From contig CAJOQN010000061.1 in NCBI GenBank assembly GCA_905236535.1, positions 1-35,740 of the forward strand: DNA of 35,740 nt, given 5' to 3'. Below are positions 9,045 through 33,263 of the stretch, one piece after another (the stretch's first letter is position 1; the number at the start of each line of letters is the position of its first letter). Under the pieces are notes generated by a model. That model was not told where the DNA came from and did no database searches. It was given only the letters and a program-made list of their open reading frames with translations. Both the position numbers and the translations under genes were made by a program. Origin of the DNA: an uncultured Bacilli bacterium. GTDB lineage: Bacteria; Bacillota_I; Bacilli_A; RFN20; CAG-826.

Positions 9045-10922
9045 ATGAAAGACTACTCAGTCATTGTTGTTGGTGGTGGTCATGCCGGTCTAGAAGCGGC
9101 CTTCGCAAGTGCAAATATGGGTGAAAAAACCCTACTTTTGTCGTTAAATCTAGATAAAATCGGCAATATGCCATGTAATCCATCAATCGGTGGAAGCGCC
9201 AAAGGAATCGTTGTTAGAGAGATTGATGCTTTAGGCGGAATGATGGGTAAAATTGCAGATATCAATTACCTTCAAATGAAGATGCTTAATACTGGCAAAG
9301 GTCCTGGTGTTCAATGTTTAAGAGCACAACAAGATAAAATTGGTTATCCTGAAGAGTGGAAGAAAGCTGTTAAGAAGCAAGAAAACCTGACTTATAAAGA
9401 TGGAATGGTTGTTTCTTTACTTCATGATGATAAACATGTTTATGGTGTCAAACTTGAAAGTGGAGAAGAGATTACTGCAGACGCTGTTATATTAACAACC
9501 GGCACGTATCTTGATAGCAGAGTGATTCGCGGCACTGAATCTTTAGTGGAAGGCCCTGATGGTGAACGTTCCTGTTTTGGTTTATCTCCATATCTTAAAG
9601 AAATGGGTATTGATATTTACCGTCTAAAGACAGGCACTCCTCCTAGGGTGAGAAGAGATTCTATTGATTTTTCAAAAGCTCTTCCTCAACCTGGTACACC
9701 TGGCAATCTTTCTTTTTCTTATGAAACTAAGGATTTTATTCCTGTAGATAAACAAGAACTTTGTTGGTTGATATATACCACTCCTGAAACTCATCAAATT
9801 ATTCGCGAACATTTAAATGATACGGCTTTATTTAATGGTCTCATTACGGGAACGGGGCCACGTTATTGCCCATCAATCGAATCTAAATTAATCAATTTCC
9901 CAGATAAAGATCGACATCAATTATTTTTAGAACCTGAATCAAGATTCACTGATTCCATTTATGTTCAAGGTTTTTCAACCTCGATGTCGAGAGAAATTCA
10001 AGATTTAATGGTTCATTCTCTGCCCGGTTTTGAAAATGCGGTTATTTTAAAATATGCTTATGCCATTGAATATGACGCTATTCAAACACATGAATATGGC
10101 CCAACATTAGAACTTAAAAAATGGCCTGGATTATATATCGCGGGTCAAATATGCGGGACTTCTGGTTATGAAGAAGCCGCAGGTCTTGGTTTACTCGCTG
10201 GAATCAATGCTGTTTTAAAGATTCAAAAGAAAGACCCCTTAATCTTACGACGTGACCAAAGTTATATTGGGGTTATGATTGATGATTTAGTGACCAAAGG
10301 AACCAATGAACCCTATAGATTACTTTCTTCTCGCGCGGAATTTCGATTATTAATGAGGCATGATAACGCTGATTTGAGATTGTCTGAGATTGGTCATGAG
10401 ATTGGTTTGATTAAAGAAGAAAGATATCAAAATTTTCTTAATAAGAAAAATAACATTCAAAAAGCCTATGATATCTTAAATAGCACGCATCTAGGAAAGT
10501 CCAAAGAAGTGGAAGAATATCTTTCCTCTTTAGGCTTTAATGAACTTAAAGGTGGAGTTTTAGCAGCAGAATTATTAAAAAGACCAACCGTTACCTTTTT
10601 AGGTATTCGAGATTTTATTCCAGAGCTTAAAGATGTTGATTTAGATGAAACAGCGATTAACCAACTTGAAATTATGGTCAAATATGAAGGCTATATCGCC
10701 AAACAACAAAAAGAAGCAAAAAATATGCAACGCCTTGAAGAATTATTAATTCCTCAAAACATCGATTATCTCCACATGGATGGACTTGCGTTAGAAGCAC
10801 GTCAAAAATTAGATATGTTTAGACCTCTTACTATCGGACAAGCCTCCCGTATTTCAGGAGTTAATCCTTCCGATATTTCAATGTTAATATTAAATATAAG
10901 AAAGTTAAGACATCATGAATAA
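9045..10922 (+). CDS. mnmG: tRNA uridine-5-carboxymethylaminomethyl(34) synthesis enzyme MnmG (GidA)
   Basis: VIVVGGGHAGLEAA, CNPSIGGSAKG, GTYLDSRV; GTG at 9033 is an alternative start. Confidence 0.97.
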   Translation: MKDYSVIVVGGGHAGLEAAFASANMGEKTLLLSLNLDKIGNMPCNPSIGGSAKGIVVREIDALGGMMGKIADINYLQMKMLNTGKGPGVQCLRAQQDKIGYPEEWKKAVKKQENLTYKDGMVVSLLHDDKHVYGVKLESGEEITADAVILTTGTYLDSRVIRGTESLVEGPDGERSCFGLSPYLKEMGIDIYRLKTGTPPRVRRDSIDFSKALPQPGTPGNLSFSYETKDFIPVDKQELCWLIYTTPETHQIIREHLNDTALFNGLITGTGPRYCPSIESKLINFPDKDRHQLFLEPESRFTDSIYVQGFSTSMSREIQDLMVHSLPGFENAVILKYAYAIEYDAIQTHEYGPTLELKKWPGLYIAGQICGTSGYEEAAGLGLLAGINAVLKIQKKDPLILRRDQSYIGVMIDDLVTKGTNEPYRLLSSRAEFRLLMRHDNADLRLSEIGHEIGLIKEERYQNFLNKKNNIQKAYDILNSTHLGKSKEVEEYLSSLGFNELKGGVLAAELLKRPTVTFLGIRDFIPELKDVDLDETAINQLEIMVKYEGYIAKQQKEAKNMQRLEELLIPQNIDYLHMDGLALEARQKLDMFRPLTIGQASRISGVNPSDISMLILNIRKLRHHE

Positions 10923-16341: not shown

Positions 16342-17022
16342 ATGAATAGATTAGAAGCCTTTAATAATTTGTCATTATTATTTCAAGCCCATGGCTATAA
16401 ACTTTTTCTTGTCGGTGGAAGTGTTAGAGATTATCTATTAAAAAAGGAAATTATAGATCTTGATGTAACAAGCGATGCAACCCCTAGTGAAATAAGGGCT
16501 TTTATTGGAGATGATGCCGATTATACCTTCTCAAAATACGGTAATGTAAATATTGATTTTGTGGGTTATAAATTTGAGCTTACAACTCTAAGAAAAGAAG
16601 ATAAATATTTTGATTCTCGTCACCCTAATAAAATTACTTTTACCAAGGATTTAAAAGAGGATTCAAACCGTCGCGATTTTACGATTAATGCTTTATATAT
16701 GGATATGAATAAAAATATTTATGATTATCACCAAGGGTTAAATGATTTACAAACTGGAGTTCTTAAAATGATTGGAGAGCCGACCAAAAGAATCATGGAG
16801 GATCCTCTTCGCATTCTTAGAGCGATTCGTTTTTCCTATCTTCTCTCATTTAAGATTGATGAATCTTTAAAAATATCAATGCATCAAAATGTTGAATTAT
16901 TAAAAAAACTCAATCCTGAAAAAATCAAACAGGAATTAAGAAAATTCAACGCGGAGAAAGAAAAGATTTTTCCTCTTTTTGATGAATTTGGTATAACAAA
17001 TCTATTAGATATGTTAAATTAG
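16342..17022 (+). CDS. cca: CCA tRNA nucleotidyltransferase-like (class II), very short (226 aa)
   Basis: LFLVGGSVRDYLL, IDLDVTSDATP, RRDFTINALYMD, EDPLRILRAIRF; ends soon after the neck region. Confidence 0.85.
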   Translation: MNRLEAFNNLSLLFQAHGYKLFLVGGSVRDYLLKKEIIDLDVTSDATPSEIRAFIGDDADYTFSKYGNVNIDFVGYKFELTTLRKEDKYFDSRHPNKITFTKDLKEDSNRRDFTINALYMDMNKNIYDYHQGLNDLQTGVLKMIGEPTKRIMEDPLRILRAIRFSYLLSFKIDESLKISMHQNVELLKKLNPEKIKQELRKFNAEKEKIFPLFDEFGITNLLDMLN

Positions 17023-22853: not shown

Positions 22854-24425
22854 ATGATCGTACTCGTAGATGCGATGGCCATTGCTTTGCCAATCATCTG
22901 TGGTGTTGCTGGTCTTATAGTCGGAGGACTAGTTATTTTCCTCATCCCCGTTTTTAGAAAATATCGCGCAGAAAACACTGCGAAAAAGATTATTCGTGAA
23001 GCGGAAATTAAAGCCGAACACATTACCAAAAACGCTAAACTTGATGGCAAACAGGCTATCTTTGAAATGAAACAAGAAGCCGACAAAGAAATTCGCGAAA
23101 GAAAAATGGAAGTCGCGAACCAAGAAAACAAATTAGCCCAAAGAGAACAAGGTATCGATAGAAGAGATGCCGCGCTCATTCAAAAAGAGAGCAATTTGGA
23201 CGCTAAAGAAGAAACTCTTAATCGCCGTTTAAAAGACGTCGATAAGAAAGAAACCCTTCTTCAAGAAAAAATCGATAGCATTATCGTCGAACTTGAAAAA
23301 GTCGCTCAAATGTCCACTCAAGAAGCGAAAGATGAACTCTTTGCGAGAGTGGAATCTAAGATTTCTCAAGAAATCGCTGCCTTCGTTAAAAATAAAGAAG
23401 ACGAAGCTAAAGAACAAGTGGAAGAGAAAGCTAAAGATATGCTCGCGCTTGCCATTTGTAAATATTCTCAAGACACCGTGACCGAAAGAACGGTCTCTGC
23501 GATTGCCCTCCCTAATGATGAAATGAAAGGACGTATCATCGGTCGTGAAGGCCGTAACATCCGTTCCTTAGAACAACTTTTAGGTGTTGATTTAATCATT
23601 GATGATACCCCTGAAGTTATCACTGTTTCCTGCTTTAATCCTATTCGTAGAGAAATTGCTCGTCGTTCCTTGGAAGCTTTAATCAAAGACGGGAGAATTC
23701 AACCTGGAAGAATTGAAGAGATTGTCAACAAATGTTCCCAAGAAGTGGAAGAAGAATCTCATAAAGCCGGTATGGATGCAGTCAATAGACTTGGTTTACC
23801 AAGAATTAATAAAGAACTCGTTAATTATATCGGTAAACTTAAATATCGTACCTCCTTTGGGCAAAACCAATTACAACACTCCATCGAAGTGGCATATCTC
23901 ACTGGAATTATGGCTGCGGAACTTGGTTTAGACCAAAACCTTGCTAGAAGAGCGGGTTTATTACACGATGTCGGTAAGGCAGTGGACTATGAAACTGATG
24001 GTTCACACGTCGAAATCGGCGCTCATTTAGCAAAGAAATATGGAGAGCCAGATGTCGTTATCAATTCCATTGAATCGCATCATGGTGATGTTCCAGCAAA
24101 ATCTATAATTGCGAACTTAGTCCAAGCCGCGGATACCTTATCTGCTGCTAGACCAGGGGCTCGTAGTGAAATGCTTGAAAATTACATCAAAAGAATCGAA
24201 AAACTCGAAGAAATTTGTAATTCCTATGATGGTGTTTCTCAAAGCTTTGCGCTACAAAGCGGTCGTGAACTTCGTGTGATGGTTATCCCTGATAAAGTTG
24301 ACGATATTGGCGCTTTCAAATTAGCGAGAGAAATCAAAGAAAGAATCGAAAATGAAATGACCTATCCAGGTCAAATTAAAGTTTCTGTCATCCGCGAATA
24401 TCGCGCGGTTGAAACAGCGAAATAG
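22854..24425 (+). CDS. rny: Ribonuclease Y
   Basis: N-terminal TM, long charged coiled coil, KH domain GRIIGREGRNIRSLEQLLGVDLIIDDTPEV, HD motif LLHDVGKAVD. Confidence 0.98.
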   Translation: MIVLVDAMAIALPIICGVAGLIVGGLVIFLIPVFRKYRAENTAKKIIREAEIKAEHITKNAKLDGKQAIFEMKQEADKEIRERKMEVANQENKLAQREQGIDRRDAALIQKESNLDAKEETLNRRLKDVDKKETLLQEKIDSIIVELEKVAQMSTQEAKDELFARVESKISQEIAAFVKNKEDEAKEQVEEKAKDMLALAICKYSQDTVTERTVSAIALPNDEMKGRIIGREGRNIRSLEQLLGVDLIIDDTPEVITVSCFNPIRREIARRSLEALIKDGRIQPGRIEEIVNKCSQEVEEESHKAGMDAVNRLGLPRINKELVNYIGKLKYRTSFGQNQLQHSIEVAYLTGIMAAELGLDQNLARRAGLLHDVGKAVDYETDGSHVEIGAHLAKKYGEPDVVINSIESHHGDVPAKSIIANLVQAADTLSAARPGARSEMLENYIKRIEKLEEICNSYDGVSQSFALQSGRELRVMVIPDKVDDIGAFKLAREIKERIENEMTYPGQIKVSVIREYRAVETAK

Positions 24426-24455: not shown

Positions 24456-25241
24456 TTGAATATTTTATTTATTGGTGACATCGTTGGACGTGTTGGACGT
24501 CGAATGATCAAAGACTACTTAAACATCTATGTGGAGAAATACCATATAGATTTTGTCATTGCTAATGGGGAAAACGCTACCCACGGAAAAGGTTTAATTC
24601 AAAACCATTATAATGAGTTAATCAATGATGGAGTGGATGTTATCACCCTTGGCAATCACTATAAGAGCAAGAATGAGATTCTCCGTTATTTGGATTTCGC
24701 GGATAATCTTGTTAGACCTTATAACATCTTAGAGAAATGCCCAGGAGTGGGCACTGCCATCTATGATGTTGACGGAATAAGCGTGAGGGTCACAAATATC
24801 TTAGGAGCGGCCTTTATGAACGAACAAGTCAATGCCCCTTATTATTCCATTTTAGAAATCCTCTCTGATGAGGAAAAAGCTAATATTCACATCATTGATT
24901 TTCACGCAGAAGCGACCGGAGAAAAGCAAAGCTTTGCCTATGCTCTTGATGGAAAAGTAACCGCGGTGTTAGGGACTCATACCCATGTTCAAACTAGAGA
25001 CTATATGGTTCTCCCCAATGGAACTGGATATATCTCAGATGTTGGAATGACTGGATATTATGAAGGCGTTTTAGGGTTTACAAAAGAAACCGTTGTCGCT
25101 AAAAATATGTATGGAGAGATGAAAAGATTTGAAGTTCCTGATGAAGGAAGAGGACTTCTCTCCGCGGTTGTTCTCCACGTTGATGATATAAGTGGAAAAT
25201 GCTTAGAAATATTCCCAATCTACTTTGTAGAGGAAAAATAA
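24456..25241 (+). CDS. ymdB: YmdB-like metallophosphoesterase (TIGR00282 type)
   Basis: ILFIGDIVGRVGRRMIKDYL, NGENATHGKG, GNHYKSK, GTHTHVQT; TTG start; downstream of rny as in Bacillus. Confidence 0.93.
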   Translation: MNILFIGDIVGRVGRRMIKDYLNIYVEKYHIDFVIANGENATHGKGLIQNHYNELINDGVDVITLGNHYKSKNEILRYLDFADNLVRPYNILEKCPGVGTAIYDVDGISVRVTNILGAAFMNEQVNAPYYSILEILSDEEKANIHIIDFHAEATGEKQSFAYALDGKVTAVLGTHTHVQTRDYMVLPNGTGYISDVGMTGYYEGVLGFTKETVVAKNMYGEMKRFEVPDEGRGLLSAVVLHVDDISGKCLEIFPIYFVEEK

Positions 25242-25242
25242 A

Positions 25243-26952
25243 GTGAAAGAAAAAATCTTAAACAAACCAGATTTAAAAAAGGCGATTCAAAGAGATTCTA
25301 GTGTTTCTCCGATTATTTATGTTGAAGACAATCGTTCTCAAAAGCTTTTAGATTTCGCCAAAGATAAAAAATATTACATTCACACCTATGGTTGTCAGGC
25401 TAATGTCAGAGACGAAGAATCGATGAGAGGAATGCTTGAGAGCATTGGTTTAACAAAAACTGAAAATAGAGAAGAGGCGGATGTTATCCTTCTTAATACC
25501 TGTGCGGTGAGAGAAAACGCTGAAGATAAATTATATGGAGAAATTGGTAACCTTAAAGGTTATATGGAAAAGCATAAAGATGCGGTTCTCGGCATCTGTG
25601 GTTGTGTTCCTGAAGAACCTGAAATCTTAGAAAGAATTCTTAAAACGTTCCCATATGTTAATTTGGTCTTTGGCACTCATGAAGTTTATCGCTTACTTGA
25701 GTTCCTTGAAGAAGTTATCTCTTCTAAAAAGAGATTAATCGCCGTGGAATCTAAATCTGGAGAAGTCTATGAAGGTTTACCAGTTATTAGAACTTCTAAA
25801 TATAAAGCCTTTGTTAATATTATTTATGGTTGTAATAAATTCTGTACTTATTGCATTGTTCCTTACACTAGAGGAAAAGAAAGAAGCCGTAAGTTCTCTG
25901 ATATCTTAAAAGAATGCCAAGAACTTATTGATGATGGGTATCAAGAGATTACCTTATTAGGCCAAAACGTCAATGCTTATGGAAAAGATTTAGATGAAGG
26001 AAAAGACTTCGCTGACCTTTTGGAAGCAGTGGCAAAACTTGGAATTCCTAGACTTAGATTCACAACATCTCATCCATGGGATTTTACCTCAAAGATGATT
26101 GATGTTATCGCTAAATATGATAATGTCATGAACTTTATTCATCTTCCAGTGCAATCTGGAAATGACAATGTTCTTAAAAAGATGGGAAGAAGATATACCT
26201 CCTCAGATTATTTAAAACTCGTTAAAGAGATGAAAGAAAAGATTCCAGGATTAGGATTATCCACGGATATCATTGTGGGCTTCCCAAATGAATCAGATGA
26301 AGAATTTAATGACACTTTAAAACTAGTGGATGAAGTAGAGTATGATTCCGCGTTCACTTTTATCTATTCACCAAGAAAAGGGACACCTGCTGCGAGGATG
26401 GAAGATACTATCTCTAAAGAAACTAAAGGCAAGAGATTTAAAGAATTAGTTAGTCATCTTGAAAAGAGTATCAGCGCCTCCAGTGAAAGAATGGTGGGTC
26501 AAGTTTATGATGTCTTAGTGGATGGAGTAAGCAAAAATAATGAGGATATGTATAGTGGTTACACCGAATCTAATAAGCTCGTCCATTTCAAAGGCGATGA
26601 ATCGATGGTGGGTAAGATAATTAAGGTTAAAATTACTGAATCCCATACTTACTCCTTAATTGGTGAAGTTATTAGTGATGATCCCATTATTCAAAAAGCC
26701 AAAGAATTAAAAGAATGTTTGAAAAATGAGCCAGTTTTAGAGGAATATTTAAGGATTAAAGCTATTTTTGAAGTCGATGAATCATTAAAAGAACTCCGTC
26801 AAAAGATTGCTGAATCAAAAGCTAAAAACGAAAAGGATGAATATGATAGATTAAAACAAATGTATGATAATCATCCACTTGTCATTAACTACTATAAAGC
26901 CAAAGAAGAAGCGATGGAGTTATTAAAAGGATTGCACGATATTATCCAATAA
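25243..26952 (+). CDS. miaB: tRNA-2-methylthio-N6-dimethylallyladenosine synthase MiaB with C-terminal YlbF/YmcA-like extension
   Basis: YIHTYGCQANVRDEE, radical-SAM GCNKFCTYCIVPYTRGKERSR, TRAM region, then ~90-aa helical extension; GTG start. Confidence 0.95.
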   Translation: MKEKILNKPDLKKAIQRDSSVSPIIYVEDNRSQKLLDFAKDKKYYIHTYGCQANVRDEESMRGMLESIGLTKTENREEADVILLNTCAVRENAEDKLYGEIGNLKGYMEKHKDAVLGICGCVPEEPEILERILKTFPYVNLVFGTHEVYRLLEFLEEVISSKKRLIAVESKSGEVYEGLPVIRTSKYKAFVNIIYGCNKFCTYCIVPYTRGKERSRKFSDILKECQELIDDGYQEITLLGQNVNAYGKDLDEGKDFADLLEAVAKLGIPRLRFTTSHPWDFTSKMIDVIAKYDNVMNFIHLPVQSGNDNVLKKMGRRYTSSDYLKLVKEMKEKIPGLGLSTDIIVGFPNESDEEFNDTLKLVDEVEYDSAFTFIYSPRKGTPAARMEDTISKETKGKRFKELVSHLEKSISASSERMVGQVYDVLVDGVSKNNEDMYSGYTESNKLVHFKGDESMVGKIIKVKITESHTYSLIGEVISDDPIIQKAKELKECLKNEPVLEEYLRIKAIFEVDESLKELRQKIAESKAKNEKDEYDRLKQMYDNHPLVINYYKAKEEAMELLKGLHDIIQ

Positions 26953-26989: not shown

Positions 26990-29900
26990 ATGAAGCAACT
27001 CATCTATAAATCATACACAAATTCATCCACTGATTTTTTAGTGTCACTCCAAGAGAATTTACCAGGAGAAAGTAGTTATCTCCCACTTGATGGAAGCGTT
27101 TCATCCTATGTTTCTCTTATTCTTACCATCTCAGGATTAAACCTTCATAAAAACGACATTATCACCAATGTGACTTTGAAGTTTGAAACAAGTGCGACTT
27201 CAGGTCAAAACAATATCTCTCTTCAAGCTAATGGAACCCTCATTGACTATTCAACTAATAGAAACGAGACTGATTCCATTTATTTTGATATTACACATCT
27301 TTTCTTAACAGATTTTAATAATAACAAAACCTTCACTTTAAATCGTAACGGGAATAACAATATGACCTTTTATCTTAGACAGCCATCTGATAATGGTCTA
27401 TGCCCTGAATTAATAATTAAATATATTCCTGCTTTTGATTTTATCGATAATCAAAATAAGATTAGTGGAAGTATTGGGGATGATATGTCTTATTCTTTAT
27501 TTCTTCCGTCTTCTTTATTTAATGTTTCTTTAAAACTATTTCCTACCTTGCTTCCGTTTGAATTATCGTTTATCTATTCTTCCTATAATCCAAATCAAGC
27601 TAATTCTATTTTCCCAAAAGGCTGGAATCTTAATCTTTTATCTTCTTTAATCATAGAGTCTAATCAAATTACCCTTATAAATGCTTCTCAGATTCAAAGA
27701 GTGTTCCTCCCTGTTCCTAATGAAAGTGGATCTTACTTTGATTCAAGTGGAAGTGGACGTCTCCTCAAACTTATCAATAATGAATATCACCTCTATTCAA
27801 ATACCTTTGATGAAGACTCATATAGTGTTTTCTCTTTAGCTGGTGATATCACCTCAATCCATCTTTTAGGATATGGAGATATCACGATTACTAGAGATAC
27901 CTCTTCTCTTACGATTACAGATTATAACGGGAATGTTGTGACCTTTTTAAAATCTACACGTAGTTCATTATCCTCTCTCACCATTTCTTTAAGCGGATTT
28001 AATTCAAATTATTATTCCTTGCTTGGCAATAATTCAAATTCGTTAACCAATCTAAATTCTGATGATGGATTTTATTCTTTTTCCTATGATTTATCCAACA
28101 ATCTGATCCAGATTATTTCTCCTTCAAATGACACGTTGAAGCTATCGTATGATTCTAACAAGCGAATTAATAAGCTCGAAGAAGGAACAAGAATAAATAA
28201 CGTCAATACTTTTTCTAACTCCTATTCCATCACTTATCAACTATTCAAATATTCAATCACCGATTTTCATAATGTAATGGTGAATTATACCTATGATGAT
28301 GAATTAAGACTATTAAGCGCCTATGAACCCGAAAAGAGCAACTTTATTGGAGCGTATAAACATAGTCTTGTTTCTTCTCATAATATTCCGTTTAATAGCC
28401 TTTCATACAAATGCACTTTAAAAAATGGAAATAATGAAAGTGCTTCTATTACCTTATCTTCTTCAAACAACAATCAAAGTGTCTCTTTTATTGGATCTTT
28501 ATCAAACAATGAGACTTTTTTGAATAACAAATACTATGTCCTTGCCTTTAAACTTGATCGCTCGCCTTTGATATATTTTGAAAGCGATCATAATACCTTT
28601 TTCTCAGCTGAGAGAAGTGTTTACGCTTTGATGGAGTGTTATGATTCAAATAATAACCTCGTCTATGGGACAAGCGCCTATGTCCCTTTGATCATTAATG
28701 AAGCGACAAACGAGATAATTTTCCCATTTAAATTTATAGAGACCACTGAGTATTCTTTGGTAAATAAAATTAAAATCACCTTCTATTTAAAGGGCGATTA
28801 CGGTTCATTCACTTTTAATGATTTCAAAATCTATGAATCCTTAGAACAAGAAAAGGAGATGTATTTGGAAGTTTCTGATTCTTATCAAAGCCCAGACCTT
28901 GTTATCAATTTTAAAAAATATAAGAAAATCATTTCTTTAAAACAATATATCTACTCAACCCCATTTAACCTTTCCTATCAAGATTTCATCATCAATAAAT
29001 TGAGGTATTATTTTTCTAGTCCATCTTTTATTTTTTATAACAGACTCAGAGAGATTATTTCTTTTAATAATCAATATAACGCTGCGACATATGATGGTGA
29101 CATTTATATTAATCACTCTAATAACATCGCTCTTATTTCTAAAAGTCAAACTAGTGATTCTTCCTCGCTTTATTTAGAAGCCCAAATCCTTAAATATGAT
29201 CCTGATAACACTAATTACTTCATTATTGAAACCATCAAAAAACATGGAGTTATAGAAGAAATAACAAAATCATATTATGACAAGCACTTTAGACTCATCA
29301 AAACCATCGATAAGGATGGGATTGTTTCTTTAAATACCTATTCATCCGCGAATAATCTCACCTCGAATAAAGTGTATTTAGAAAATAATCTAAGTAAATA
29401 TTTTGAGACCACATATTCTTATAATAGACATCGTCTCACCCAAGAGAGTTACTTTTCTTCAACTTCTGTTGTCTCTAAGCAATATACATATAAGAATTAT
29501 TCTGAGATATGCACTAAATATACAAATCCTAACTCCAATAGTTTTGATTATTCATATTCCACAAATTATAAATATCTCACTAAAAATAGATATCATTTAG
29601 GGATGACCGTGGATGATTACACCCAAAGTTCATATTCTACTCAAAAGTTATCTAACACCTCATCTTCTAATCACACAAAATATCTTTTCACCTATGATAA
29701 ATATAACCTTTTAGCCTCGTTTGATTATGAGGAGTACACAAGTGGAGGTGGAGGTATCACTCCTTTTGATCCACTTGAGCCAATTGGACCTATCTCAATT
29801 GGAGATACCTATTACACCGATGACCCTCCAACATATTCAAAACTTATCGAATTTAGAAACGAGATAACCTCTAACGGAAAAACCAACCTCGCGATTTATA

Positions 29901-32047
29901 AAAATCACGATGTTATCATTTCGGAGTTTGATAAATATAGTCGCTTAACTTCTCTTAGATGTGAGAAGGATGGTGTTTCTCAAGGGGAAGCTACTTATTT
30001 ATATGCGGATTTAGATTGGATTATTAATAACTTTTATCCTTATAATTCGCCAATGTTTGATATTGCAAGCGTTCCTAATGACTATATTTCTTCAGAATCT
30101 AAACTGATCAAAATAACTGATGATGTCTTAAGCTGTTATACTTTATTCTTTTATTATCCAAATGGTTTAGTTAGTGAAATATATGTGACGGATGCTCCAT
30201 ATTCAAATATGATTGCTACCGAGTCTTTTGCTTATGATAGTCTTTTTAGACCAACAAGAGTTGCGTTTGATTATGTAGCCCCATTTGCAGCCACAATTAG
30301 AACATATGAATATGATGGTCTAGAAAAACAGCCATATAAGGAATTTATTACTCTAGATAGTCAAACCTCTCCAACTTTTGCTGTTGAAATCCATAAAGAC
30401 TCATTTGGAAGAGCCTCTCAAATAGATGAAAAGTTTACATTCTCAAAAGGATTCATCTATTCTTATGATTACTTTACGAATGGGACGCTTTTAAGTAATT
30501 TAGTTTCATCTATTGCAATAACGAGTGTTGCTAATTCATCAAATTATTCCGTCAATGATTTAACATATGATAACAACGGGAATATAACTTCAATTACCGA
30601 AACAATTCATGAGGGCAATCAAACACCAGTTACTTATCATCGCTCTTTCTCTTATTCAAGCACTGGGGTGTTGTTAAGAGACAATAATGAACAGCTTGGT
30701 AAAAGCACTAAATATGCATATGATTCAAATGGCAATATTAAAACCATTGTTTCGGGAACCTATTCAACATCATCTACAATTCCTAATTCCACAACTAAAA
30801 CATTCACTTATAGTTCAACATTTCCTGATCTTTTAACTGATTATAATGGCTCCACAATTGAATATGATGCTTATCTCAATCCTATTAGATGGGGCACAAC
30901 ATATTATGAATGGACTAGGGGAAGACTATTAAGCAAATGGCAAAAAGGCTCCACAACTGTCACATTTACCTATAACGATTCTGGATTAAGAACCTCAAAA
31001 ACGGTTGGATATACTACTCGTTTGTATTTTTATAATTCATCTAACCAACTTACTTATGAAACTACAATTGGGAATGTGACTAGTTATTACTATTCACTTA
31101 ATGGAATAGTTGGCTTTAAATACAATGGGAATCTTTATTATTACAAAAAGAACATCTTTGGTGATATCACTCATATCTATAATAGCAGTGGCAACCTTGT
31201 AGCCACTTATAAATATGATGCCTACGGTAACACAATAGTATGTAACCCAAATGGTATAGAGAATACCTCATCGTCGTTTATTGGTAATATCAATCCTTTT
31301 AGATATAGAGGGTATTACTATGATAAAGAAACCGGGTTATACTATTGTAAGTCCAGATACTACAATCCAACATGGTGTCGATGGCTCAACGCTGATTCTT
31401 TAGATTATTTGGATAACACTGAGATAGGTGGTATTAACTTATTCTCATATTGTCATAATAATCCAGTGATGTTTAAGGATGAGACTGGTCACCTACCAAC
31501 TTGGGCAAAATGGGTGATTGGAGGAGTTACTTTTGCTATATCTATCGCTTTGACGGTCGCTACTGCTGGTTCTTTGGCTCCTCTCTTTATTGGCATGGGT
31601 ATTAGTATTTTGGGTGGAGCATTAGTTGGTGGATTATCCTATACAATTGAAAACAAAGATTTTTGGGATGGTTTTGCAGAAGGAGCTGCCGATGGTGCAA
31701 TGTGGGGAGGTATTTTTTCATTAGTAGCTTCTTTATTTAATGTTGTTTCAATGGCTAGACAAGGATATACTATCGGAAAATATGGAGTTTACCAAGATGT
31801 TGCAAGAGCGACCGGAACTAATTATTATAGAGGCATGAAATCATATAATTTTGTTAAAAGCATTCTTGGAGAAAAAACAGCGAATACTTTAGCGTGGACA
31901 CAAAACAAATTTGTCTTAAAAACGGTTATGTTATTTCGCGGCCCAATTTTTAATGCAGTTAGCCCATTAACAGGAACATATGCAAAGGAAGTTGCTTTGA
32001 TTACCTCTCTGGGATATAAATATTTTTATGAAGTTTGGCCGTATTAA
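26990..32047 (+). CDS. RHS/YD-repeat protein with C-terminal variable (candidate toxin) region
   Basis: N-terminal DNRLRE-like jelly-roll region, multiple YD motifs (YDSNGNIKTI, YDNNGNITSI, YKYDAYGNTI), RHS core NPFRYRGYYYDKETGLYYCKSRYYNPTWCRWLNADSLDYLD...NLFSYCHNNPVMFKDETGH. Confidence 0.93.
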   Translation: MKQLIYKSYTNSSTDFLVSLQENLPGESSYLPLDGSVSSYVSLILTISGLNLHKNDIITNVTLKFETSATSGQNNISLQANGTLIDYSTNRNETDSIYFDITHLFLTDFNNNKTFTLNRNGNNNMTFYLRQPSDNGLCPELIIKYIPAFDFIDNQNKISGSIGDDMSYSLFLPSSLFNVSLKLFPTLLPFELSFIYSSYNPNQANSIFPKGWNLNLLSSLIIESNQITLINASQIQRVFLPVPNESGSYFDSSGSGRLLKLINNEYHLYSNTFDEDSYSVFSLAGDITSIHLLGYGDITITRDTSSLTITDYNGNVVTFLKSTRSSLSSLTISLSGFNSNYYSLLGNNSNSLTNLNSDDGFYSFSYDLSNNLIQIISPSNDTLKLSYDSNKRINKLEEGTRINNVNTFSNSYSITYQLFKYSITDFHNVMVNYTYDDELRLLSAYEPEKSNFIGAYKHSLVSSHNIPFNSLSYKCTLKNGNNESASITLSSSNNNQSVSFIGSLSNNETFLNNKYYVLAFKLDRSPLIYFESDHNTFFSAERSVYALMECYDSNNNLVYGTSAYVPLIINEATNEIIFPFKFIETTEYSLVNKIKITFYLKGDYGSFTFNDFKIYESLEQEKEMYLEVSDSYQSPDLVINFKKYKKIISLKQYIYSTPFNLSYQDFIINKLRYYFSSPSFIFYNRLREIISFNNQYNAATYDGDIYINHSNNIALISKSQTSDSSSLYLEAQILKYDPDNTNYFIIETIKKHGVIEEITKSYYDKHFRLIKTIDKDGIVSLNTYSSANNLTSNKVYLENNLSKYFETTYSYNRHRLTQESYFSSTSVVSKQYTYKNYSEICTKYTNPNSNSFDYSYSTNYKYLTKNRYHLGMTVDDYTQSSYSTQKLSNTSSSNHTKYLFTYDKYNLLASFDYEEYTSGGGGITPFDPLEPIGPISIGDTYYTDDPPTYSKLIEFRNEITSNGKTNLAIYKNHDVIISEFDKYSRLTSLRCEKDGVSQGEATYLYADLDWIINNFYPYNSPMFDIASVPNDYISSESKLIKITDDVLSCYTLFFYYPNGLVSEIYVTDAPYSNMIATESFAYDSLFRPTRVAFDYVAPFAATIRTYEYDGLEKQPYKEFITLDSQTSPTFAVEIHKDSFGRASQIDEKFTFSKGFIYSYDYFTNGTLLSNLVSSIAITSVANSSNYSVNDLTYDNNGNITSITETIHEGNQTPVTYHRSFSYSSTGVLLRDNNEQLGKSTKYAYDSNGNIKTIVSGTYSTSSTIPNSTTKTFTYSSTFPDLLTDYNGSTIEYDAYLNPIRWGTTYYEWTRGRLLSKWQKGSTTVTFTYNDSGLRTSKTVGYTTRLYFYNSSNQLTYETTIGNVTSYYYSLNGIVGFKYNGNLYYYKKNIFGDITHIYNSSGNLVATYKYDAYGNTIVCNPNGIENTSSSFIGNINPFRYRGYYYDKETGLYYCKSRYYNPTWCRWLNADSLDYLDNTEIGGINLFSYCHNNPVMFKDETGHLPTWAKWVIGGVTFAISIALTVATAGSLAPLFIGMGISILGGALVGGLSYTIENKDFWDGFAEGAADGAMWGGIFSLVASLFNVVSMARQGYTIGKYGVYQDVARATGTNYYRGMKSYNFVKSILGEKTANTLAWTQNKFVLKTVMLFRGPIFNAVSPLTGTYAKEVALITSLGYKYFYEVWPY

Positions 32048-32387
32048 ATTACAACACAATAATAGTGCCATGATTAAGGCATTTAGATTTCTTTTTGATG
32101 AATTTGATTTGGAACTTGATTTTTGTTATCCATATGGTTTTCAATGGTCAAAATGGTCAAACTCAAAAATGTCTATCAAAATATCTTTTTTTTATTCTGA
32201 TTCACCTTTTTTTATTTTTGCTATTGGTTCGACAGAACAAAATCCAATCAGTTTTTATTATGAATTTTCTCCGCCTTTTTCTGATAACATGATTCAAATG
32301 CCCCTCACAGAACTTTTTTATCTTGCGGCAGACTGGTTTAAGAAGAAACTTTTTGATATACTACATCCTTGCTGTAATTTCTTTTAA
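32028..32387 (+). CDS. Small hypothetical protein, candidate immunity partner of the RHS C-terminus (119 aa)
   Basis: ORF overlaps the 3' end of the RHS ORF by 20 nt, same strand, no TM segment; function inferred from position only. Confidence 0.6.
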   Translation: MKFGRIKLQHNNSAMIKAFRFLFDEFDLELDFCYPYGFQWSKWSNSKMSIKISFFYSDSPFFIFAIGSTEQNPISFYYEFSPPFSDNMIQMPLTELFYLAADWFKKKLFDILHPCCNFF

Positions 32388-32402: not shown

Positions 32403-33263
32403 ATGCTTTATATCATTGTTGGTCCAACAGGCTCTGGAAAGACTGCTTTAGCGCATCAATTATCTGACCTCTTTGATAAGTGTCCTTTAGTGAATGCGGA
32501 TGCTTTTCAAGTGTATAAAGATTTAGATATTGGGACTGCGAAGATTAAAAAAGATTCGCCTTATTATTCTCGTTATCAACTTCTTGATTATCTATCCCCT
32601 GATAAGCCATTCTCTATTAAGGATTTTCAAGACGATTTCAGAAAAGTGGTAGATCCTAATAAAGACTATGTTGTCGTTGGTGGTTCTGGGCTTTATATTA
32701 AAGCCGCGATCTATGATTATTCATTCCCAGAAGAAGAACAATCATTTGATAACTATGATGATTTAAGCAATGAAGAATTATATTCAATGCTTCAAGAATT
32801 AGATATTGAAGCTTCTAAGAATATTCACCCTAACAATCGTAAGAGAGTGATAAGAGCGATTCAAATTGCGAAAAGCGGCCTCACTAAAAGTGAAGTGATT
32901 GAATCTCAAGAGCATAAGCTTTTATATCCATGTCGAATTATCTTTATCAATCCACATAGAGATGAATTATATGAACACATCAACAAACGAGTGGACATTA
33001 TGATTAAAGAAGGTCTCGTGGATGAATGTAAGATGCTCTTAGAGAAATATGAGTTATCCCTTACTGCAAGACAAGCGATTGGATATAAAGAGATATTTGA
33101 TTATTTAGAAGGTAAATGTTCTTTAGAATCTGCGATTGAATTAATTAAAAAGAGAAGTAGAAATTATGCGAAGAGACAAGTTACTTTCTTTAAACATCAA
33201 TTTCAGACAATTGAATATATAAGTGCTGAAGAAGCACTAAAGGCTATTAAAAATGAAAGATGA
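32403..33263 (+). CDS. miaA: tRNA dimethylallyltransferase MiaA
   Basis: IIVGPTGSGKTALAHQL, NADAFQVYKDLDIGTAK, VVVGGSGLYIKA, ARQAIGYKE. Confidence 0.97.
   Translation: MLYIIVGPTGSGKTALAHQLSDLFDKCPLVNADAFQVYKDLDIGTAKIKKDSPYYSRYQLLDYLSPDKPFSIKDFQDDFRKVVDPNKDYVVVGGSGLYIKAAIYDYSFPEEEQSFDNYDDLSNEELYSMLQELDIEASKNIHPNNRKRVIRAIQIAKSGLTKSEVIESQEHKLLYPCRIIFINPHRDELYEHINKRVDIMIKEGLVDECKMLLEKYELSLTARQAIGYKEIFDYLEGKCSLESAIELIKKRSRNYAKRQVTFFKHQFQTIEYISAEEALKAIKNER

Follow-up and report, generated by a model that had tools for sequence, protein, structure and literature searches.

A miaB-ymcA (ricA) gene fusion downstream of rny in an uncultured Bacilli bacterium, probably arisen by a net one-nucleotide deletion in a gene overlap

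In a 35,740-nucleotide stretch of DNA from an uncultured gut bacterium of the Bacilli (the window, meaning the whole stretch that was analysed), we found a single gene encoding the tRNA methylthiotransferase MiaB with a RicA (YmcA) domain at its C-terminus. The best explanation as a whole, to which we give a probability of about 0.78, is a real miaB-ymcA fusion made by a net 1-nt deletion, with a bifunctional product and a tether that is tolerated or mildly favoured. The same fusion certainly exists in other genera of the family, and in the window's own genome it is very probably real. By comparison with relatives, a net loss of one nucleotide in an 8-nt gene overlap would have removed the stop codon of miaB together with the start codon of ymcA. 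Most likely the product is bifunctional, each half keeping its known job: the MiaB part, judging from its intact domains and cysteines, would make ms2i6A37 in tRNA, and the C-terminal RicA part, like B. subtilis RicA, would pair with a separate RicF and, together with RicT, deliver RicT to RNase Y. The tether would put a covalent link in place of translational coupling and probably creates no new activity. Two halves that each do their known job appear to us the most economical reading. The fusion was not reported in the literature searched for MiaB with YmcA, YlbF or Com_YlbF, and other literature or domain databases may show it. The features of the fused gene and its neighbours are as follows.

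25243..26952, + strand: fused miaB-ymcA (ricA), GTG start, TAA stop (open frame, translation, Pfam/NCBIfam)
25369..25674, + strand: UPF0004, N-terminal domain of MiaB, residues 43-144 (Pfam)
25813..26328, + strand: radical SAM domain of MiaB, residues 191-362, with CxxxCxxC (Pfam)
26488..26673, + strand: TRAM domain of MiaB, residues 416-477 (Pfam)
26665..26688, + strand: fusion junction EVISDDPI, with miaB stop and ymcA start both lost
26686..26949, + strand: Com_YlbF domain, RicA/YmcA type, residues 482-569, five helices (Pfam, PDB profile, AlphaFold, Foldseek)
22854..24425, + strand: rny, RNase Y, context (RNase_Y_N, KH_1 and HD in Pfam)
24456..25241, + strand: ymdB, YmdB-like phosphoesterase, context (PF13277)
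32403..33263, + strand: miaA, dimethylallyltransferase, context (PF01715)

The reading frame at 25243-26952 (+) is a single open frame of 569 amino acids, passing from the TRAM domain into a 92-residue tail without a break; the first-pass annotation, which had described a MiaB continuing for about 90 amino acids past TRAM, was correct in coordinates and sequence. The MiaB part matched TIGR01574 with 536.2 bits over residues 43-477 (NCBIfam; cut-off 355.3 bits), and MiaB structures (PDB 7MJV-7MJZ) were the top matches of the full-length model. The auxiliary-cluster cysteines C51, C87 and C121 and the radical SAM cysteines C197, C201 and C204 (CxxxCxxC) were invariant in the aligned fused proteins. 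The gene had also been placed two genes downstream of RNase Y, and indeed rny and ymdB lie directly upstream of it.

The product of MiaA is i6A, the substrate of MiaB. In two fused genomes (G018 and G129) miaA stands directly 3' of the fused gene. In the window, a 1685-residue protein of RHS/YD-repeat character (26990-32047, +) is encoded between the fusion and miaA, together with a 119-residue orphan that overlaps it (32028-32387, +). The larger protein carries, by eye, a C-terminal 'GLYYCKSRYYNPTWCRWLNADS...' motif, and Pfam gave a sub-threshold DUF6531 match and nothing else. The window also encodes a CCA-adding/poly(A) polymerase (16342-17022, +) of 226 residues, shorter than usual, with a PolyA_pol head and a weak RNA-binding-domain match.

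The tail had been assigned by eye to the YlbF/YmcA pattern, and the profile search agreed: against PF06133 (Com_YlbF; gathering cut-off 23.9 bits) the domain alone scored 33.7 bits (E 5e-8) and the whole protein 26.7 bits, covering profile positions 1-101 of 105. Profile, fold and gene position together indicate that the domain is specifically of the RicA/YmcA type and not RicF/YlbF. A profile built from 32 tail-domain relatives, the window's own domain among them, had B. subtilis RicA as its best PDB match (33.6 bits, E 4e-7), with RicF at 19.0 bits (E 0.015); the single tail domain gave no meaningful match to the PDB by phmmer. The AlphaFold model of the domain has a pLDDT of 96.4 and five helices. 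Through Foldseek, its best four matches were YmcA, RicA and the RicA-RicF complex (TM 0.62-0.77, probability 1.00) and the top 11 hits were all Com_YlbF proteins, with weak E-values of about 0.05; the comparison with YmcA/YlbF structures proposed in the first-pass annotation thus turned out in favour of YmcA/RicA. The tether is short in the full-length model, where the helix at 481-494 begins within four residues of the TRAM strand at 471-476.

Separate orthologues of the tail domain lie directly 3' of miaB in relatives, as expected from the proposal that two neighbouring genes were fused. Elsewhere in the genome, a separate Com_YlbF gene adjoins rsmD and coaD (the ylbF-rsmD-coaD locus), which is where ylbF (ricF) lies in B. 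subtilis, and a separate PSP1/RicT gene contains two CxxxxCC motifs; both ylbF and yaaT, for which a genome search had been suggested, were found in this way. Since RicF and RicT have their own genes, the fused domain is expected to be RicA/YmcA.

RicA, RicF and RicT form a complex with 1:1:1 stoichiometry, in which RicA and RicF pass RicT on to RNase Y (PMC6751060, PMC10470536). In B. subtilis its cluster 1 is held by RicT alone, and the ligands of cluster 2 are RicT C167, RicF C134 and C146, and RicA C141 (PMC6751060). The C-terminal cysteine corresponding to RicA C141 is absent from the fused domain and also from the family's separate YmcA proteins. The lack of tail cysteines in RicA is a trait of the family irrespective of fusion, and the window's domain is RicA-type by descent, not by the C-terminal cysteine feature. 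RicF of the window's genome and its genus has one C-terminal cysteine; with none in RicA, a cluster 2 as in the B. subtilis complex may not form. The absence of the Cys tail had been noticed before, and this part stood. The further suggestion that any Fe-S function may rest on MiaB's own clusters is unsupported: all six cysteines of the cluster region are still present in RicT, and the loss is seen with and without fusion.

The ancestral arrangement is seen in relatives. In the first 40 fetched from the family and the order, miaB is followed by a Com_YlbF gene some 90-115 codons long, G018 itself being fused, and in more distant Bacilli and Erysipelotrichia a separate Com_YlbF gene follows miaB in most cases. 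Outside the fused clades MiaB ends about 0-13 residues from the TRAM domain with the separate gene mostly next, and the extension is therefore not a general property of MiaB proteins, a point on which the first-pass annotation had staked its proposal. In all 46 separate pairs fetched, ymcA occupied the +1 frame with respect to miaB; 34 of them had an overlap of exactly 8 nt, for which ATGAATAA and ATGAATGA are typical sequences. Measured between MiaB residue 477 and a fixed position in a YmcA helix, the spacing in separate genes was mostly 70 nt (26 pairs) or 73 nt (8 pairs); fused genes mostly had 69, 72 or 75 nt, the commonest value being 69 nt (31 of 34), and the window has 72 nt (G242 was left out of the junction comparison for a run of N). 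As this spacing is one nucleotide shorter than that of the separate pairs, the fusion comes down to one nucleotide lost, net and modulo whole codons, and a net -1 indel at the overlap of miaB and ymcA is the event to which the sequences point. An exact model of 4-nt repeat slippage was given up, since a net 1-nt change fits the spacing equally well or better; only the net -1 is claimed.

One genome, G318 (L196, reverse strand, nt 596-2405), reads miaB-TAA-ATG-ymcA in the same frame, where stop readthrough would yield a fused protein. It gave a full match with one stop and was rejected as a fused genome.

A survey of the spread of the fusion had been proposed. We searched the family (224 genomes) with a YmcA profile, and the class (395 genomes) and the phylum (392 genomes) with a TRAM+YmcA junction profile. 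Unbroken fused frames turned up in at least 46 genomes, all of the window's family and none outside it among the matches listed. Most of genus g17 is fused, as are genus g24 and two members of g26, while in g1 the window is the only case. One fused genome is a single contig of 1.06 Mb; most genera keep miaB and ymcA separate. A search of viral_contigs gave ordinary MiaB relatives only, matching over the MiaB part alone. On a quick tree of the MiaB part, with the fused domain excluded and some forks open, the state changes five times, as four fusions (the ancestor of g17 and g24, G129, G151 and the window) and one re-split (G079); the number of changes is independent of the root, and their direction is interpretation. 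G079 (L156) has the sole separate miaB-ymcA pair found nested in the fused genus g17, its stop being closely followed by a new start, and is apparently a re-split of a fused gene.

Another overlapping gene pair served as a control. The mnmG-rsmG overlap of the window at 10915-10922 is ATGAATAA, identical to the commonest miaB-ymcA overlap. Of 20 genomes checked, 19 show an overlap of these two genes, though in many cases it is one of 4 nt in the other frame, and no RsmG frame fused to MnmG was found among roughly 155 family matches listed (one absurd frame length was ignored). This control, of a single gene pair, suggests that fusion is especially tolerated or favoured for miaB-ymcA; alternatively, RsmG may need a free N-terminus.

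Might the fusion be a Rosetta-stone link, in which MiaB has to be close to the RNase Y specificity complex? MiaB would then be a working part of that complex, and tRNA methylthiolation, or its iron/SAM status or supply, would feed into and tune the choice of RNase Y targets. We consider the link, and this content of it, rather unlikely. The conserved miaB-ymcA neighbourhood with its tight overlap, the four independent fusions, the maintenance of the domain by purifying selection in the large fused clade and the lack of mnmG-rsmG fusion among the matches listed all speak in its favour; however, a single-nucleotide deletion suffices and the recurrence may be mutational, one fusion was re-split, most genera do without it, and no known physical or genetic MiaB-Ric interaction was found in the literature searched. 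The recurrent fusion hints that tRNA modification and RNA cleavage are functionally linked, and is not proof of it.

The fusion of the window could also be a sequencing or assembly error, one base missing at the overlap of genes that are actually separate. It is a singleton in its genus, where both congeners have separate, overlapping genes; the net difference is one nucleotide, adding one base at the junction makes the genes separate again, ymcA then starting with GTG or TTG, and the assembly is a draft of 114 contigs. Yet in a scan of single insertions at the junction none brought back the usual ATG start with the 8-nt overlap, and fusions of this kind occur in no fewer than 45 further genomes of the family. 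The other annotated genes of the window appear uninterrupted, so indel errors are not frequent. We judge such an error improbable.

That the domain is decaying or decoupled, a remnant still translated at the end of MiaB and inactive in the Ric complex, is quite improbable. Such a state would suit the divergence of the YmcA domains of the family (24-47% identical to that of the window) and the lack of the B. subtilis tail cysteine in fused domains, but the family's separate YmcA proteins diverge equally fast (43% identity between the congeners) and lack the cysteine as well. The dN of the window's domain against the congeners' separate YmcA was about 0.50, and that of the congeners against each other 0.56. 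In three close fused pairs, one of them with high dS, dN/dS was 0.03-0.10 for the YmcA part and 0.01-0.07 for MiaB, which argues for purifying selection on the fused domain and against decay; the window compared with its congeners was saturated, and the close fused pairs alone were used. RicT is retained in 33 of 34 genomes checked, a separate RicF-like gene is present in most, and the five-helix fold was modelled confidently. An unrelated helical extension merely resembling Com_YlbF, for which low identity and a moderate Pfam score could be cited, is refuted by the concordance of profile, fold, neighbourhood and separate orthologues.

Under the preferred reading of a real, bifunctional fusion, a short gene overlap that is one base from fusion can repeatedly give a two-domain protein. 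The conserved miaB-ricA synteny has been noted without explanation (PMC6751060), and the recurrent, conserved fusion offers a natural molecule for testing joint action, supplying a covalently linked MiaB-RicA pair for co-purification and structure work. If a working link were true, the separate overlapping miaB-ymcA pairs of other Bacilli would be the transient version of a MiaB-RicA unit.

Compared with known systems, the domain shares with B. subtilis RicA/YmcA (PF06133; PDB 2PIH, 6PRH, 6PRK) the Com_YlbF fold, the association with miaB and the presence of RicF and RicT in the genome, whereas it is joined to MiaB, has about 92 residues and is without the C-terminal tail bearing the cluster-2 cysteine C141. 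As in ordinary MiaB (TIGR01574), the UPF0004, radical SAM and TRAM domains are complete with all six cluster cysteines, but the fused protein bears an additional C-terminal RicA domain. The genes for all members of RicAFT (the Y-complex) and for RNase Y are present: rny and ricA lie in the window, ricF and ricT elsewhere in the genome. A complex formed from their products would, unlike the known one, contain its RicA subunit as a covalent part of MiaB.
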